A DNA stretch of 35,319 bases, from the IMG/VR virus record IMGVR_UViG_3300038701_001387, positions 1 through 35,319 of that record. One strand, written 5' to 3'. The position numbers and the translations under genes were made by a program. The notes under the pieces were generated by a model, which searched no databases, was not told where the DNA came from, and worked only from the letters and a program-made list of their open reading frames with translations. Source of the DNA: a virus. Below are positions 25,013-34,914 of the stretch, piece after piece (the first letter of the stretch is position 1; every line of letters starts with the position of its first letter).

Positions 25013-26242
25013 TTACCCCTTAAAAAACTTTTTGAATTGATCGTGTCCATACTGGCCTTCCGTTAAGGCGATGATCTCTTTAATCGTGTATTTATCCTTT
25101 ACCTTCTCTTGGTTTTCGATAAATGCTTTGACACCGTACTCACACGCCCCTGTAATAACTCGGTACATTTCGATAAGCTCTGGCACTGTATGTTTGCTGT
25201 TAAGTTTTAGCCCTTCATATTCACTTTTATCTCTATCTCCAATTTTGTAGATCAGATTTTCTCGGGCTTTTTTAATTGTGCTTCCGTGCGCTGATTTACC
25301 ATTGTCAGTTACGAGGTAAACAATGTCGCCCTCATCATTTTTAAGCTTTCTTACATTGCCTCGTGTCGATAAAACTCTATGGAATAGCCCATCGGTATAA
25401 TCGACCTCAACCCACTCACCACCTTCAACGATGTACCAACAGTCTGGTTTTAATAGTTTACCGTCCACAATGTCAGCTTTGCCACCAACAGGAATTAACT
25501 TATCGTCTTTTCTTGCGTATTCAGATGCCATGAGTAAATTACCCATGTCACCCTTTACGGCGGCACGATAACCTAATGCTGAACAAGCGCTGTAGTCACC
25601 AGAGCTTGCGGCTGTACTGGAGTTACCAGAGCTAGCCGCTTTACTGTAGTAACCAGAGCTTGCGGCTTTACTGTAGTTACCAGAGCTTACGGCTGTACTG
25701 GAGTCACCAGAGCTAGCGGCTGTACTGTAGTAACCAGAGCTTGCGGCTGTACTGGAGTTACCAGAGCTTGCGGCTTTACTGTAGTCACCAGAGCTTGCGG
25801 CTGTACTGTAGTCACCAGAGCTTACGGCTGTACTGTAGTCACCAGAGCTTGCGGCTTTACTGTAGTCACCAGAGCTTACGGCTGTACTGGAGTTACCAGA
25901 GCTAGCCGCTTTACTGTAGTCACCAGAGCTAGCGGCTGTACTGTAGTAACCAGAGCTTGCGGCTTTACTGGAGTTACCAGAGCTAGCCGCTTTACTGTAG
26001 TAACCAGAGCTTGCGGCTTTACTGTAGTTACCAGAGCTTACGGCTGTACTGGAGTCACCAGAGCTAGCGGCTGTACTGTAGTAACCAGAGCTTGCGGCTG
26101 TACTGTAGTCACCAGAGCTTGCGGCTGTACTGGAGTAACCAGAGCTTTTGTGTTCTTTTTCGGTTTGTTTATAGAATTCGTTAAAGTCAGTTGTAGCTAA
26201 CTTAATTAAATCTTTTATGTCTTGTGTGAATATATCAGTCAT
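25013..26242 (-). CDS. Nonapeptide-repeat protein (409 aa)
   Basis: The product (MTDIFTQDIKDLIKLATTDF start, ATG 26242 behind AAGGAAAAGAAA) has a 30-residue helical head, then 20 full and one degenerate copies of a nine-residue repeat SSG[YDN][YS]S[TK]A[AV], then a globular part of about 180 residues (CWYIVEGGEWVEVDYTDG, and HTVPELIEMYRVITGACEYG). The repeat resembles YadA-head or other beta-solenoid coils, one turn per nine or eighteen residues. The C-terminal part resembles uncharacterised domains of phage early proteins. No signal peptide, so probably cytoplasmic. The function is unknown. Confidence 0.75.
   Translation of the reverse strand: MTDIFTQDIKDLIKLATTDFNEFYKQTEKEHKSSGYSSTAASSGDYSTAASSGYYSTAASSGDSSTAVSSGNYSKAASSGYYSKAASSGNSSKAASSGYYSTAASSGDYSKAASSGNSSTAVSSGDYSKAASSGDYSTAVSSGDYSTAASSGDYSKAASSGNSSTAASSGYYSTAASSGDSSTAVSSGNYSKAASSGYYSKAASSGNSSTAASSGDYSACSALGYRAAVKGDMGNLLMASEYARKDDKLIPVGGKADIVDGKLLKPDCWYIVEGGEWVEVDYTDGLFHRVLSTRGNVRKLKNDEGDIVYLVTDNGKSAHGSTIKKARENLIYKIGDRDKSEYEGLKLNSKHTVPELIEMYRVITGACEYGVKAFIENQEKVKDKYTIKEIIALTEGQYGHDQFKKFFKG
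25580..26146 (-). repeat. 27-bp tandem repeat array, about 21 copies
   Basis: The array encodes SSG[YDN][YS]S[TK]A[AV]. Copies differ at a few fixed sites. Units 3-7 (YYSTAA, DSSTAV, NYSKAA, YYSKAA, NSS-AA) recur as units 16-20, a higher-order duplication. Such an array is prone to slippage and copy-number change. Confidence 0.93.
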
Positions 26243-26531
26243 TTTCTTTTCCTTGCCTTGCGTACCCGCCAATATCATCCCAATGGTCTTTGTGCTTTGG
26301 GTTGCCGTTCACGATGCGGCTAACTTTTACCAAGATCATTTCTAGAGATTCTCTTTGTGGAGGCGATATTTGCCCCCATTTTTCACCTTGGCGAATAGTT
26401 TTTTTAAGCTTCTGCGCCATAGCCGATTGAAAGCCAAAATCACCGTGTGTTGATTGACGAGATTCTAAAATATTTCCAACCTCGTCTGGCTTGCTTTCTC
26501 GTATTAGTTTTCCCGTCATTGGATCGTGCAT
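26235..26531 (-). CDS. DUF6378-like phage protein
   Basis: The 98-aa protein begins MHDPMTGKLIRESKPDEVGN and contains ILESRQSTHGDFGFQSAMAQ, RESLEMILVKVSRIVNGNP and DHWDDIGGYARQG. This arrangement (THGDF, then KxxRIxxG, then DxxGYA) is typical of small phage proteins grouped as DUF6378 and resembles a MazG-like helical fold. Nucleotide hydrolysis is possible but not shown. It overlaps the repeat-protein start by 8 nt. Confidence 0.65.
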   Translation of the reverse strand: MHDPMTGKLIRESKPDEVGNILESRQSTHGDFGFQSAMAQKLKKTIRQGEKWGQISPPQRESLEMILVKVSRIVNGNPKHKDHWDDIGGYARQGKEND

Positions 26532-27090: not shown

Positions 27091-27394
27091 TGTAAAACCT
27101 CCATGCTTTAATCTTCATTTCTTCTAACGGCTTGCCGTACAAACTCTTTGCTAATTCTGTAGCGTGCCAAACACCCTTGTATTGTTCGTGAAAGCTAACT
27201 TCTCCCATGTTGTGCTGTTTTCTGTGACAGCTCTGGCACATGGGTATGGTGTAACAATCGCTAGGCTTCAAACCCATTCCCCCGTCGGTTGAGTAACGAA
27301 TGTGGCAGGCCTCAACATTACCCTCACACTCGTTACTCATATAAAGGCAGGGTAGTTGCCTAATATTTTCTAGATGTTTGTTATCTCTAATCAT
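27077..27394 (-). CDS. DUF968/HNH-like zinc-binding nuclease
   Basis: The 105-aa protein carries CLYMSNECEGNVEACHIRYS (about 16-35), GGMGLKPSDCYTIPMCQSCH (about 38-57) and RKQHNMGEVSFHEQY. The paired Cys and His residues (CxxC near 53-56, H57, H61) and the GG-G-KP-D segment are those of DUF968/YbcO-type HNH nucleases, which act on DNA in phage recombination. Neighbours are SSB and Rad52-like genes. Start and stop overlap adjoining genes. Confidence 0.7.
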   Translation of the reverse strand: MIRDNKHLENIRQLPCLYMSNECEGNVEACHIRYSTDGGMGLKPSDCYTIPMCQSCHRKQHNMGEVSFHEQYKGVWHATELAKSLYGKPLEEMKIKAWRFYNGGV

Positions 27395-27852
27395 CAGAAT
27401 GGTATTTCATCTTCGAGTTGTGATGGTGTTTGGTTGCTTGCCATGTCATGAAGACCTGCTTCACTAACACCATCTTGATTAGCTGGCGTTTGCTGATTAT
27501 TTTCTCTACTATCCAACATTTTGATTTCACCGCGATAGGGACGTAAGACAATCTCAGTCGTATATTTCTTCTGACCGTCTTGCTCCCATGAGCGAGTTTC
27601 TAGCTGCCCTTCGATATAAATCTTTGAACCTTTTTGAAGGTAGTTTTCACAGACATTCATTAAGCCTTGGTTGAATACAACAACGCGGTGCCATTCTGTT
27701 TTTGATTGACGCTCACCTGTTTCTTTATTCTTCCAGCTTTCAGATGTTGCGATAGATAGATTGCATACCTTATCGCCTGATTGCATTGTTCGGACATCTG
27801 GCGCATCGCCTAGATTCCCAATCAACGTTACTTTATTTACTGATCCTGACAT
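27394..27852 (-). CDS. ssb: Single-stranded DNA-binding protein
   Basis: The 152-aa protein has a full OB-fold: VNKVTLIGNLGDAPDVRTMQ, VCNLSIATSESWKNKETGER, TEWHRVVVFNQ, YLQKGSKIYIEGQLETRSWE (about 5-108). A flexible linker follows and the conserved acidic tip DEIPF. It coats single-stranded DNA and recruits repair and replication partners through the tip. It is set beside the Rad52-family annealing gene, the usual pairing in phage recombination modules. Confidence 0.93.
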   Translation of the reverse strand: MSGSVNKVTLIGNLGDAPDVRTMQSGDKVCNLSIATSESWKNKETGERQSKTEWHRVVVFNQGLMNVCENYLQKGSKIYIEGQLETRSWEQDGQKKYTTEIVLRPYRGEIKMLDSRENNQQTPANQDGVSEAGLHDMASNQTPSQLEDEIPF

Positions 27853-27854
27853 GT

Positions 27855-28217
27855 TTAGTTTCCTTTCGCTTTAAACATTATTGTGTACCCACCGTTATCC
27901 ATCACGACGCCCTTAACAGGGGTATCTAATTTCATAGCGGCGTTTATTTTTGATTTATCGATCTCTTTCTTTACCTTCATGAACTCTTCAGGAATGAGTG
28001 ACGCATCTTTGATGATTGGCTTTGGTGAAACCTTTCTGATGTGAATACCCAAGTCGTCGTAACAGACACCTTCTTCAAAATGTTCGTGAATGATTTTTGC
28101 TTTAACGTCTTCCTTCATCGCTTCGTGCGTTTTGATAACGGAGTCTATTTCACGCTTTTTCTCTTTTAGTTTGAAGATAACGTCTTCAATATCTATGTAC
28201 TCTTGCCCTAAGCTCAT
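27855..28217 (-). CDS. Gp157-like protein of the recombination module
   Basis: The 120-aa protein has an N-terminal helical half (IEDVIFKLKEKKREIDSVIK) and a C-terminal half KPIIKDASLIPEEFMKVKKE, KSKINAAMKLDTPVKGVVMD. The IPEEFxKVKKExDKxKINxAMK region is typical of the Siphovirus Gp157-like family, which is often beside SSB and annealing genes. The exact role is unknown. It overlaps the upstream gene as ATGA. Confidence 0.7.
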   Translation of the reverse strand: MSLGQEYIDIEDVIFKLKEKKREIDSVIKTHEAMKEDVKAKIIHEHFEEGVCYDDLGIHIRKVSPKPIIKDASLIPEEFMKVKKEIDKSKINAAMKLDTPVKGVVMDNGGYTIMFKAKGN

Positions 28218-28939
28218 TGCGCCATTCCTTGAATTGGTTCTCTAAGAAGTTTTTCAGCGTTTTGGGCTATGCTTGATTGGCGCTCTTTTTCTTTAAGCTT
28301 GTCTTGAATAACTTTACCGATTGTTCTTTGTTGCTCTTCGGTCATTCTTGAGCGTTGAGCTATAGCTTTTTCTCTAGCGGCATCAAGCTTTGCTTTGCTT
28401 GTTGCTTCTTCTATTTCTTGTTTAAGTCCCAGAAATTCCTCACCAGTAAATGGGGTGTTTTTTTCAACTGGCTTAGTTTTAGGTTTAGCGCCCCTTACAA
28501 TATCCCAAGGATTAGCTGTAAATTTACTAAAACGCTGCTTGCCGCTTTTGTCTGTGTAAGTTTCACAAGGAACCCACGGCGTTTTTACGTCGTATAGGTA
28601 TCTTCCAATACCCCACAAAACAGCGGCTCTTTTCATTGCATCACTGATGGCGCCTTTTTCGGCCTCTACTTGTGTATCTCCAGCACCGTTTGCTTTCCAG
28701 ATCCATTCACCGCCTATTTTAATTCCAATCTCTGCGATTGTTTTGCTTTCGGCTTGTGAGTATCTAACTTGCCAATTGGCAGGGCCACAAACATCGTCTA
28801 AACGCTCCATAACGTCACGCGCGTCGATGTAAGCTAGAGCTAGTGCTTTATCTCCAGCTTTAGTTAGGGTTTGCGCTCTCCAACTGACAATCGATTCAGG
28901 AAAAGGTTCTTTTAATTTATCTAGTTCTATCTCTGACAT
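28214..28939 (-). CDS. Rad52/Rad22-family single-strand annealing protein
   Basis: The 241-aa protein has the phage Rad52-type core: ALAYIDARDVMERLDDVCGP (about 33-52), NWQVRYSQ, GEWIWKANGAGDTQVEAEKG (about 77-96) and SDAMKRAAVLWGIGRYLYDV (about 98-117). Charged helical C-terminal part. Such proteins form rings that anneal complementary single strands during phage recombination. It partners with SSB, Gp157-like and HNH proteins encoded next to it. ATG 28939 follows TAGGAGGTTAAA. Confidence 0.88.
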   Translation of the reverse strand: MSEIELDKLKEPFPESIVSWRAQTLTKAGDKALALAYIDARDVMERLDDVCGPANWQVRYSQAESKTIAEIGIKIGGEWIWKANGAGDTQVEAEKGAISDAMKRAAVLWGIGRYLYDVKTPWVPCETYTDKSGKQRFSKFTANPWDIVRGAKPKTKPVEKNTPFTGEEFLGLKQEIEEATSKAKLDAAREKAIAQRSRMTEEQQRTIGKVIQDKLKEKERQSSIAQNAEKLLREPIQGMAQ

Positions 28940-30873: not shown

Positions 30874-31440
30874 TTAACCCACAGCAGCTTGGGGAAATTC
30901 TTCATTAGCTGGTTGATATCCGAGCACACGCATCTTTAATTGAGATTTGTAGTAATCTACAAGCGTGTCCGCGTTAAAATCAGATGTACCCCAAACAACG
31001 GTGTCATGCTTTTCAAATAAGTCTTTAAACATCATTTCAAAAAATGGCTTTCCTAATCCATTTCCTCTCTGTCCTTTGAACAGGGCAAGGTTATGAATTT
31101 CTATTGTAGATTTGCTTTGAACAATATCATTGAATTGAGAGAATATAGCACTAGGCGGCCCGATAAGGGCATAGCCTATAGGCGCTTTATTTTTTCTTAA
31201 TACCCTTAGTCTTGTATCTGGGTGTGATAATAAGGGCATCATCGCTTCTTCTTGGTGAGCTTCGATTTTATCCCACTGGACACCTGTTTCAATTTTCTTA
31301 ACAAGGGCTGAGAAGTTTTCCCATGTAGGTTCAATTTCAGCGTAATCTAAGCCAGGCCAAGCTTTAGCGAAGTGCTCAGATAGCACGCCAGCTTGCCAAT
31401 CTCTTTTAAATATTGCTAAAAAGTGTTTGCCGAAATTCAT
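30874..31440 (-). CDS. GNAT N-acetyltransferase paired with an Xre sensor
   Basis: The 188-aa protein has the GNAT core: beta strands RLRVLRKNKAPIGYALIGPP (about 77-96), IEIHNLALF, and motif A QRGNGLGKPFFEMMF (R-x-x-G-x-G type acetyl-CoA loop, about 122-136), then NADTLVDYYKSQLKMRVLGY. A long helical N-terminus (1-75) may bind the substrate. The ATG overlaps the upstream Xre gene stop (ATGA), so both are made together. The acceptor is unknown. It lies in the immunity region and is not a usual phage gene, so it is probably a lysogenic-conversion gene. Confidence 0.78.
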   Translation of the reverse strand: MNFGKHFLAIFKRDWQAGVLSEHFAKAWPGLDYAEIEPTWENFSALVKKIETGVQWDKIEAHQEEAMMPLLSHPDTRLRVLRKNKAPIGYALIGPPSAIFSQFNDIVQSKSTIEIHNLALFKGQRGNGLGKPFFEMMFKDLFEKHDTVVWGTSDFNADTLVDYYKSQLKMRVLGYQPANEEFPQAAVG

Positions 31441-32084
31441 GGCTCAAATGCCTCGTTTTCCCATGATTTTTCAAAGAAATGACGCATTTGATCTGCCGTA
31501 TCTTTTTGGTCAATCACAACAGCAAGAACATCATTATTGTCAAAATTTAGAAACGCTATTTTAGAACCGTAGATGTATATAGTTTTATCGCTAAACAATT
31601 CTTCTGGTAGCCATTTGTACGAGCAATAAGAAGATCCAAGAAAGGAATCGTCCCCTTCTTTTACAACGACCCTAAAGGTGAAACGCTCAGATAGTTTTAA
31701 CATCCTCTCTAGGTGCATATCCAAGAAGTCTTTTCCTAGTGCATTTAAGACAAGATCCGATACACCATTATAAAGCCAGATATCAGTTTGTTTTTCTGAT
31801 TTAACAGTATTGTAAATATCGGTATAAAATTCTCGAAAGCCGTCAGTCCCTCGGTATTCTCTAACGCCAATAGGGGCCTTCCTAACGCCTTGACCGTCTA
31901 TGAACTCTAGCCCATGCCCCTCATAATAGAGCTGCAGGGTGGCTAAAGTTTGGGCGTTGCCTTTACTCTTTTCGTTTTCAATTTTTGAAAGAGTGGCTTT
32001 ATCTATCGAGCAATCCTCACAAACCCTTGACTGGTCTAGGTTTAAGTGCGCTCTGGCCTGTCTGAGCTGGGCTGCTGTAATCAT
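31437..32084 (-). CDS. Xre-family regulator with C-terminal PLD/TrmB-like sensor domain
   Basis: The 215-aa protein has an N-terminal Xre HTH (MITAAQLRQARAHLNLDQSR, CSIDKATLSKIENEKSKG, 1-45), then YYEGHGLEFIDGQGVRK, typical of proteobacterial Xre regulators. The C-terminal domain (about 78-210: FREFYTDIYNTVKSEKQTDI, IWLYNG, FTFRVVVKEGD, IYIYGSKIAFLNFDNNDVLA, MRHFFEKSW) resembles the PLD-like effector domain of TrmB-type regulators. It likely senses a small molecule or modified substrate. It has its own divergent promoter region (32085-32204) and is coupled to the GNAT gene. Confidence 0.72.
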   Translation of the reverse strand: MITAAQLRQARAHLNLDQSRVCEDCSIDKATLSKIENEKSKGNAQTLATLQLYYEGHGLEFIDGQGVRKAPIGVREYRGTDGFREFYTDIYNTVKSEKQTDIWLYNGVSDLVLNALGKDFLDMHLERMLKLSERFTFRVVVKEGDDSFLGSSYCSYKWLPEELFSDKTIYIYGSKIAFLNFDNNDVLAVVIDQKDTADQMRHFFEKSWENEAFEP

Positions 32085-34219: not shown

Positions 34220-34705
34220 ATGAGTGAACTAAGGCAGGGTGTAGGCGAAAGTAACGAATGGTATACGCCATTGTTTATTTTTGAAGCTTTGGGAGTAACC
34301 TTTGATTTAGACCCTTGCGCTCCTAACAAAGACCATTGGACGCCAGCTGCAAAATTTTACACCAAAGAGGATGACGGACTCTCACAAGATTGGAACGGAT
34401 TTGTATTTATGAATCCTCCATTTGGCGGAAGAAACGGACATGTTCCTTGGTTAGAAAAGTTTATTGAGCACTACAATGGCATTGCAATAGTAAGGGCTTA
34501 CACTTCATCAGCTTGGTGGCATGAATACATTCCAAAATGTACAGGGGTTCTGTTTCCTAAAGGTAAAACTAAGTTCATTAAACCAGATGGCACCATAGGA
34601 GGCTCTCCTTCTTCAGGCGTCGCCTTGCTCGCTTGTTCAGGCTATGCAGCAGAGATTTTAAAACAATCAGGGTTAGGCATATATATGGAGCAGGCGACAG
34701 TATGA
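34220..34705 (+). CDS. Dam-type DNA N6-adenine methyltransferase
   Basis: The 161-aa protein belongs to the phage N-6-adenine methyltransferase family (Dam, PF05869 type): NEWYTPLFIFEALGVTFDLD (about 12-31), DPCAPN, FYTKEDDGLSQDW and the catalytic FMNPPFGG (NPPF 65-68), then PKGKTKFIKPDG and SPSSGVALLA. It uses S-adenosylmethionine to methylate adenine, probably shielding phage DNA from restriction or marking it. Start ATG 34220 follows CAGGGGGAAAC. It ends inside the next small gene. Confidence 0.88.
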   Translation: MSELRQGVGESNEWYTPLFIFEALGVTFDLDPCAPNKDHWTPAAKFYTKEDDGLSQDWNGFVFMNPPFGGRNGHVPWLEKFIEHYNGIAIVRAYTSSAWWHEYIPKCTGVLFPKGKTKFIKPDGTIGGSPSSGVALLACSGYAAEILKQSGLGIYMEQATV

Positions 34706-34914
34706 ACGACAAGATAGACGAAATACTAGAAGAAGTTACCAAGAATTATTCTTGTACCGTTCAGCAATTAAGAAGCCCTCAAAGAGCTTCACATTTGGTT
34801 AAAGCCCGTAGAAGGGTAAGCCGCAAGTTAAGACAACAAGGGATGTCCTATCCCCAAATAGGAAGAGTACTCAATAAAGATCACACAACAATTATTCATC
34901 ACTTACGGGGGTAA
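34702..34914 (+). CDS. DnaA domain IV-like DNA-binding protein
   Basis: The 70-aa protein starts MNDKIDEILEEVTKNYSCTV at ATG 34702 and ends with the DnaA box-binding helix-turn-helix: KARRRVSRKLRQQGMSYPQI and GRVLNKDHTTIIHHL. Only domain IV of DnaA is present, without ATPase. It could bind DnaA boxes at the phage origin or compete with host DnaA. The DUF1376 replication gene lies two genes further along the circle. It overlaps the Dam gene by 4 nt. Confidence 0.82.
   Translation: MNDKIDEILEEVTKNYSCTVQQLRSPQRASHLVKARRRVSRKLRQQGMSYPQIGRVLNKDHTTIIHHLRG

Follow-up and report, generated by a model that had tools for sequence, protein, structure and literature searches.

The IMG/VR virus record IMGVR_UViG_3300038701_001387 contains a gene with a long array of 27-bp units, and the nonapeptides encoded by these units are nearly identical to each other, differing only at a few set residues. 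This raises the question of what keeps these residues diverse in an otherwise uniform array, and what the protein that carries them might do for the phage. The analysis started from the window, which is the whole stretch of 35,319 nucleotides (positions 1 to 35,319 of the record), and was extended to related arrays in viral contigs.

The array gene and its surroundings

The gene is an ORF on the minus strand at positions 25013–26242 and encodes a protein of 409 residues, which consists of an N-terminal helical segment, the nonapeptide array, a linker and a conserved C-terminal domain. Its start is probably the ATG at 26242 and not position 26278, because the sequence AAGGAA (26254–26249) is located 6 nt ahead of the former and the homologues of the protein open with the same methionine, that of MTDIF. 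The N-terminal segment (26147–26242) is conserved among the relatives of the window type according to alignments A1 and A2, and the AlphaFold2 model predicts helices at residues 7–17 and 20–36. The linker (25388–25573) contains the sequence GYRAAVKGDxGNLLMASEY, which is common to the window-type relatives (alignments A2 and A3). The C-terminal, or tail, domain (25016–25387; match to profile A4 at 25019–25387) carries the motifs HGxTIxxA and YRxxTGAC.

A search of the whole window with TRF revealed a single array with a period of 27 and 20.7 copies at 25590–26147. Read on the minus strand, it is composed of 20 complete SSGxxSxAx units (26146–25607) of the form SSG[YDN][YS]S[TK]A[AV], which is the number of full nonapeptide copies that the sequence-only reading had claimed. 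A diverged 21st unit, SSGDYSACS, is located at 25580–25606 and runs into the linker. The residues that differ between the units are those at positions 4 (Y, D or N), 5 (Y or S), 7 (T or K) and 9 (A or V). Two silent sites, the third nucleotides of codons 8 and 9, are also variable in the array DNA. Units 3–7 (25958–26092) and units 16–20 (25607–25741) represent the two copies of a duplicated block. Units 3–6 are exactly identical to units 16–19, whereas units 7 and 20 are one nucleotide apart (K/T), so that the five-unit duplication reported earlier holds exactly for four units and nearly so for the fifth. When the unit order was shuffled, an exact four-unit block appeared in 1 of 2000 shuffles and a block of five units with no more than one mismatch in 0 of 2000. 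The duplicated block in the window array is non-random. Exact DNA scans of viral contigs found no close relatives of the window array.

The array gene of this 35-kb virus record sits in a run of minus-strand genes. Its start is overlapped by the end of the upstream DUF6378 gene (26235–26531; Pfam PF19905, E 2.4e-7), and the same run contains a gene for a single-strand binding protein-like product (27394–27852) and an Erf-like recombination gene (28214–28939). The unannotated neighbour genes were named by reading their sequence. A homologue of the ssb-like gene is found near the related locus L004, homologues of the erf-like gene near L004 and L027, and an annotated ERF gene near the relative in Tetrasphaera phage TJE1, a cultured phage that carries the C-terminal domain. 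The neighbours of the array gene in other phages are recT-, ssb-, erf-, YqaJ-, RuvC-, helicase- or primase-like genes. The proposed placing of the gene in an early operon is supported by both sets of neighbours. The early run is headed, as judged by eye, by a helix-turn-helix gene and, after it, an acetyltransferase-like gene (30874–32084, minus strand). On the plus strand, at 34220–34914, an adenine-methylase-like frame (34220–34705) is followed by a frame resembling the DNA-binding end of DnaA (34633–34914), likewise by eye.

The predicted structure of the array consists of one five-residue strand per unit, with positions 4 and 5 placed in the turn and position 7 at the start of the strand. 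The pLDDT of this AlphaFold2 model is mostly 83–89 and lower in the last units. The model agrees with the beta-solenoid that had been proposed from the sequence; however, AlphaFold2 is documented to yield confident but unrealistic beta-solenoids from repeat sequences (PMC11795689), and a solenoid fold of the array is therefore regarded as suggestive only. The linker and the C-terminal domain were modelled well, with a pLDDT of 88.6. A fold search of the PDB with the full model and with the C-terminal model gave nothing at E ≤ 0.001, and the C-terminal profile had no match by sequence among solved structures. The sole sequence match among solved structures, Spt5, reflects low complexity only and was rejected.

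Unit turnover and diversification at set codons

A first scan of viral contigs, for which repeat peptides were used as bait, gave 38 loci; when the C-terminal part outside the repeats served as the anchor instead, 25 loci were obtained. Turnover of the units is evident from pairs of closely related loci. L084 and L085 are 99.2% identical over the 618 nt after the array, yet their arrays, both located inside contigs, contain 20 and 12 units, respectively, in a different order. The arrays of L090 and L092 (96.9% identical) differ in a like manner. L027 and L028 share 5.1 kb of identical sequence and differ only inside the array, where both contigs end, while L058 and L063, with 93% identity upstream, have wholly different arrays. 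Where the flanks are fully identical (L017–L019; L092 and L096), the arrays are identical over the shared part, and the sole difference between L139 and L144 (99.9% identical) is a unit at the contig edge of L144. Judging from these sequences, the change of the array is fast, but it does not take place at every transmission. The expansion and recombination suggested in the sequence-only reading are backed by the non-random block duplication together with the relatives, among which neither the number nor the order of the units is constant.

Many viral assemblies break at this gene. Among 50 virus records, 22 have a contig end no further than about 650 bases from the C-terminal domain on its array side, compared with 3 that end within 1 kb on the other side. 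This is expected, since short reads cannot resolve repeats. L009 and L066 come from opposite ends of a single contig and overlap within the array gene, yet their arrays and a few residues differ, owing either to mixed variants or to an assembly fault.

The variability of the units was compared in 43 distinct related viral arrays with 439 units in total; not all of the 43 are independent, as a few share one contig or one near-identical phage. The silent sites are uniform within the arrays, and the consensus units of different arrays are separated by 0.83 differences per silent site, which is near saturation. The first nucleotide of codon 4 and the second nucleotide of codon 7 are variable in all 43 arrays, and the second nucleotide of codon 5 in 38 of the 43. 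Mean heterozygosity at these three coding positions is 0.507, compared with 0.049 at the fourfold-degenerate sites of the same units, and it exceeds that of the fourfold sites in each of the 43 arrays (Wilcoxon p ~1e-8). At the second nucleotide of codon 7, an alternation of A and C, a transversion that mostly gives T or K, is found in 41 of 43 arrays. The bases one or two away from the variable sites are nearly constant, including the adenines at nucleotide 2 of codon 4 and nucleotide 1 of codon 7. Since these nearby bases are conserved, gene conversion or a regional mutation rate is insufficient to explain the pattern, and selection or base-targeted change is needed.

The same pattern is seen both in the window-type arrays found through the C-terminal part and in other protein architectures, when each is taken separately. 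In Dulem virus 31 the core of the unit is different (SSGxxAxLA), yet the same three positions are variable. This shows that set residues are diversified far above silent sites, and that this diversification recurs on several scaffolds. The four variable residues named from the window sequence are present there, and in the relatives diversification goes far beyond the silent sites. The sequence of Dulem virus 31 (PP511318.1, locus L040) is circular, 35.8 kb long and contains exonuclease and replisome-organiser genes; its taxonomy line, Microviridae, does not fit this size and gene content.

Within the units, the combination Y-Y at positions 4 and 5 is depleted (18 observed, 34 expected), and Y-K at positions 5 and 7 is enriched (96 observed, 79 expected). 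No order or period rule was found between units: one of the 36 lagged tests was nominally significant, which was due to rare residues. Charge balancing across the arrays is weak at best (r = 0.33). Unrelated control arrays were sought in the same loci, and the matches were mainly other reading frames of the same arrays, giving no clean external control.

Protein architectures and the conserved C-terminal domain

At least three protein architectures contain the nonapeptide array, namely the window type, the DUF7666 type and a type that matches YdhT of E. coli nearly end to end. In the phage proteins of the second type, DUF7666 (PF24703) precedes the same array, with L012 scoring above the cut-off. 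The window protein does not contain this domain and has no match in Pfam up to E 1. It matches PHROG 4433 (E 1.8e-23) and PHROG 27197 (E 3e-19), both without an assigned function, over the array and the linker; its C-terminal domain, in contrast, is outside the coverage of either family. No match to the known anti-phage defence proteins of PADLOC was found up to E 0.1. The YdhT model NF007410 scored 62.2 bits with the window protein, through the repeats only, against a curated cut-off of 300 bits. YdhT has nine-residue repeats of the same type, and the phage protein of L017 matches it nearly end to end; however, its repeats are old and diverged, its N- and C-terminus are different, and its length is near-constant in E. 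coli, where 80% or more of the protein is present, at an identity of at least 95%, in 5362 of 5426 genomes. The gene itself, ydhT of E. coli K-12 (b1669, L042:5748–6560), is a distant relative whose length is nearly unchanged in almost all E. coli. At L013:4584–6173, an SSG array of about 30 units is found on an unrelated N-terminal part of about 150 residues that starts with MCDFHSIV.

Other repeat proteins were also considered. The RTX nonapeptide and ice-nucleation proteins have beta-solenoids built of short-period repeats, and a short period, which in RTX is likewise 9 residues, is shared by the window array. The calcium motif of RTX proteins, GGxGxDxUx, is absent from the window unit. Bacterial ice-nucleation proteins have 16-residue tandem repeats (PMC9418140), and such repeats are absent from the window protein, whose period is 9 residues. 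The 33–35-residue repeats of TAL effectors have two variable residues and do not correspond to a nine-residue unit with three to four variable positions. No C2H2 zinc finger was found in the window protein by Pfam, and the unit lacks the residues of such fingers. By the tests made, the window protein belongs to an uncharacterised phage family and is not a YdhT, DUF7666, RTX, TAL, zinc-finger or diversity-generating retroelement (DGR) protein. No account of this system was found in the papers searched on DUF7666, YdhT and hypervariable phage repeat proteins.

The C-terminal 124 residues form a domain that is found at 172 places in viral contigs, usually once per virus, and the genes encoding it are often located in replication or recombination modules. 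In bacteria, the C-terminal profile was found in 1 of 398 genomes (one phylum). The domain is joined to the SSG array and to ASSGxxAx[VL] arrays, to the leucine-rich-like LPDNLTVGG[SY]L[DY]L[RES]G and SIPEGFNPTVGG[SYG]L[DY]L arrays, and to the eight-residue CTF[KD]T and V[VE]A[RW] arrays. Besides SSG, at least five other repeat types are present on this domain, and the periods overall are 8, 9, 18, 20, 21 and 22 residues. These arrays vary at fixed positions: among 44 of them, a set that partly overlaps the 43 arrays described above, 23 have no silent variation, and pN exceeds pS in 35. The residues that recur at the variable positions across arrays are Y, S, D, N, K, R, E, W, H and G.

Three records contain two genes with the C-terminal domain each, bearing different arrays (L103; L072 and L076; L051 and L011), and the copy in the L076 region holds a stop codon. 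Open frames with variable GxGx repeats (x being D, Y, S or N) and few silent changes are present at L003, L087, L088 and L147; these glycine-alternating frames may represent another array type or alternate frames. At L023, an SSG array is adjoined by a further frame whose 12-residue repeats, of the SQL[NYG] type, show no silent variation.

A putative binding module and the alternatives

Repeats that are nearly identical and differ at set residues, forming a scaffold on a constant part of the protein, are known from TAL effectors and from the variable receptors of lampreys, although the repeat length and the fold differ from those of the window array. A parallel in the mode of evolution is offered by the PRDM9 zinc fingers, in which concerted evolution of the repeats is combined with positive selection at set contact residues (PMC2779102). 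Similar to these arrays, the phage repeats are homogenised at silent sites and diversified at set residues. The likeness is restricted to this mode, as the fold is unrelated and the window protein has no zinc fingers. As PRDM9 likewise combines a uniform scaffold with diversity at set positions, we propose, with about even confidence, that this early protein, a member of a large undescribed phage family, has its variable part in the array, which acts as a putative fast-evolving binding module on the conserved C-terminal domain. The array would be one of several elongated repeat scaffolds joined to this domain. Duplication, loss and reshuffling of units keep the array DNA uniform, while two to four set residues of each unit remain diverse, probably through selection; the annealing recombinases of these modules (Erf/RecT) may help the reshuffling. 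We infer that the variable residues are exposed and together make up a binding face, with which each phage would present its own combination of residues to a changing partner. This partner may be a host factor, as the sequence-only reading had suggested, or a defence protein, or else a rival element encountered early in infection. The conserved C-terminal domain would couple this binding to a constant action.

The main rival explanation, which we regard as rather unlikely, is that heterogeneity as such is selected for the sake of folding or solubility: mixed exposed residues would prevent mis-registered folding, amyloid-like stacking and aggregation of a rod that serves as spacer or scaffold. 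The lack of a consistent rule of unit order fits mere heterogeneity, but it is also compatible with a code, as a strict code needs no such rule. The rival is further favoured by the several different scaffolds that serve the same C-terminal domain, and by curli-type and other amyloid-like repeats among the low-scoring fold matches, a weak similarity. If solubility alone mattered, however, there would be no reason for all arrays to vary at the same three positions and between the same alternatives, nor would one expect skewed frequencies such as those at position 7 of L005 (T 11, K 1) and L008 (K 13, T 1).

It is improbable that the arrays are simply young and subject to drift, with uniform silent sites left by recent expansion, purifying selection on the core and variable residues that are merely free. 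Many arrays are clearly young, 14 of the 43 having no silent difference at all, and in any one array the few segregating sites could all be coding by chance. Fourfold sites should be equally free, yet 28 of 182 are polymorphic, compared with 124 of 129 for the three coding positions, and the same positions still vary in the more silently diverged arrays of L117 and L103. There is an equally small chance that we are dealing with a virion or surface component, i.e. a fibre, an adhesin or an ice-binding type of protein with ordinary structural repeats. Solenoids are common in fibres, and low-scoring matches to collagen-like adhesin models were obtained; in many phages, however, the neighbours of the gene serve replication and recombination, and in the window it lies apart from the virion genes. 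By eye, the N-terminus of the protein does not look like a signal peptide. Least probable of all is mutation directed at set bases, or a hotspot there, as in DGRs, since, although A is among the alternatives at several variable sites and the changes are confined to single bases, the neighbouring adenines hardly vary, the same alternatives are found in different codon contexts, and the 35-kb record, which may be incomplete, has neither a reverse-transcriptase motif in its long open frames nor a template-like copy elsewhere.

The proposal of a binding module on a conserved domain can tentatively be taken further. It is possible, though less likely than not, that phages of many environments share a common early 'receptor' family, in which one conserved effector domain bears interchangeable scaffolds. 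Each scaffold would hold the phage's own combination of binding residues, with selection maintaining their diversity and recombination reshuffling them. Such a family would be the phage counterpart of lamprey receptors or PRDM9 fingers, directed against host or rival factors. If this is true, a widespread and unstudied phage gene family evolves like the fastest recognition proteins, and its targets would constitute a new layer of phage–host or phage–phage conflict. It would also explain why viral assemblies often break at the array gene, which may have helped the gene to be overlooked.
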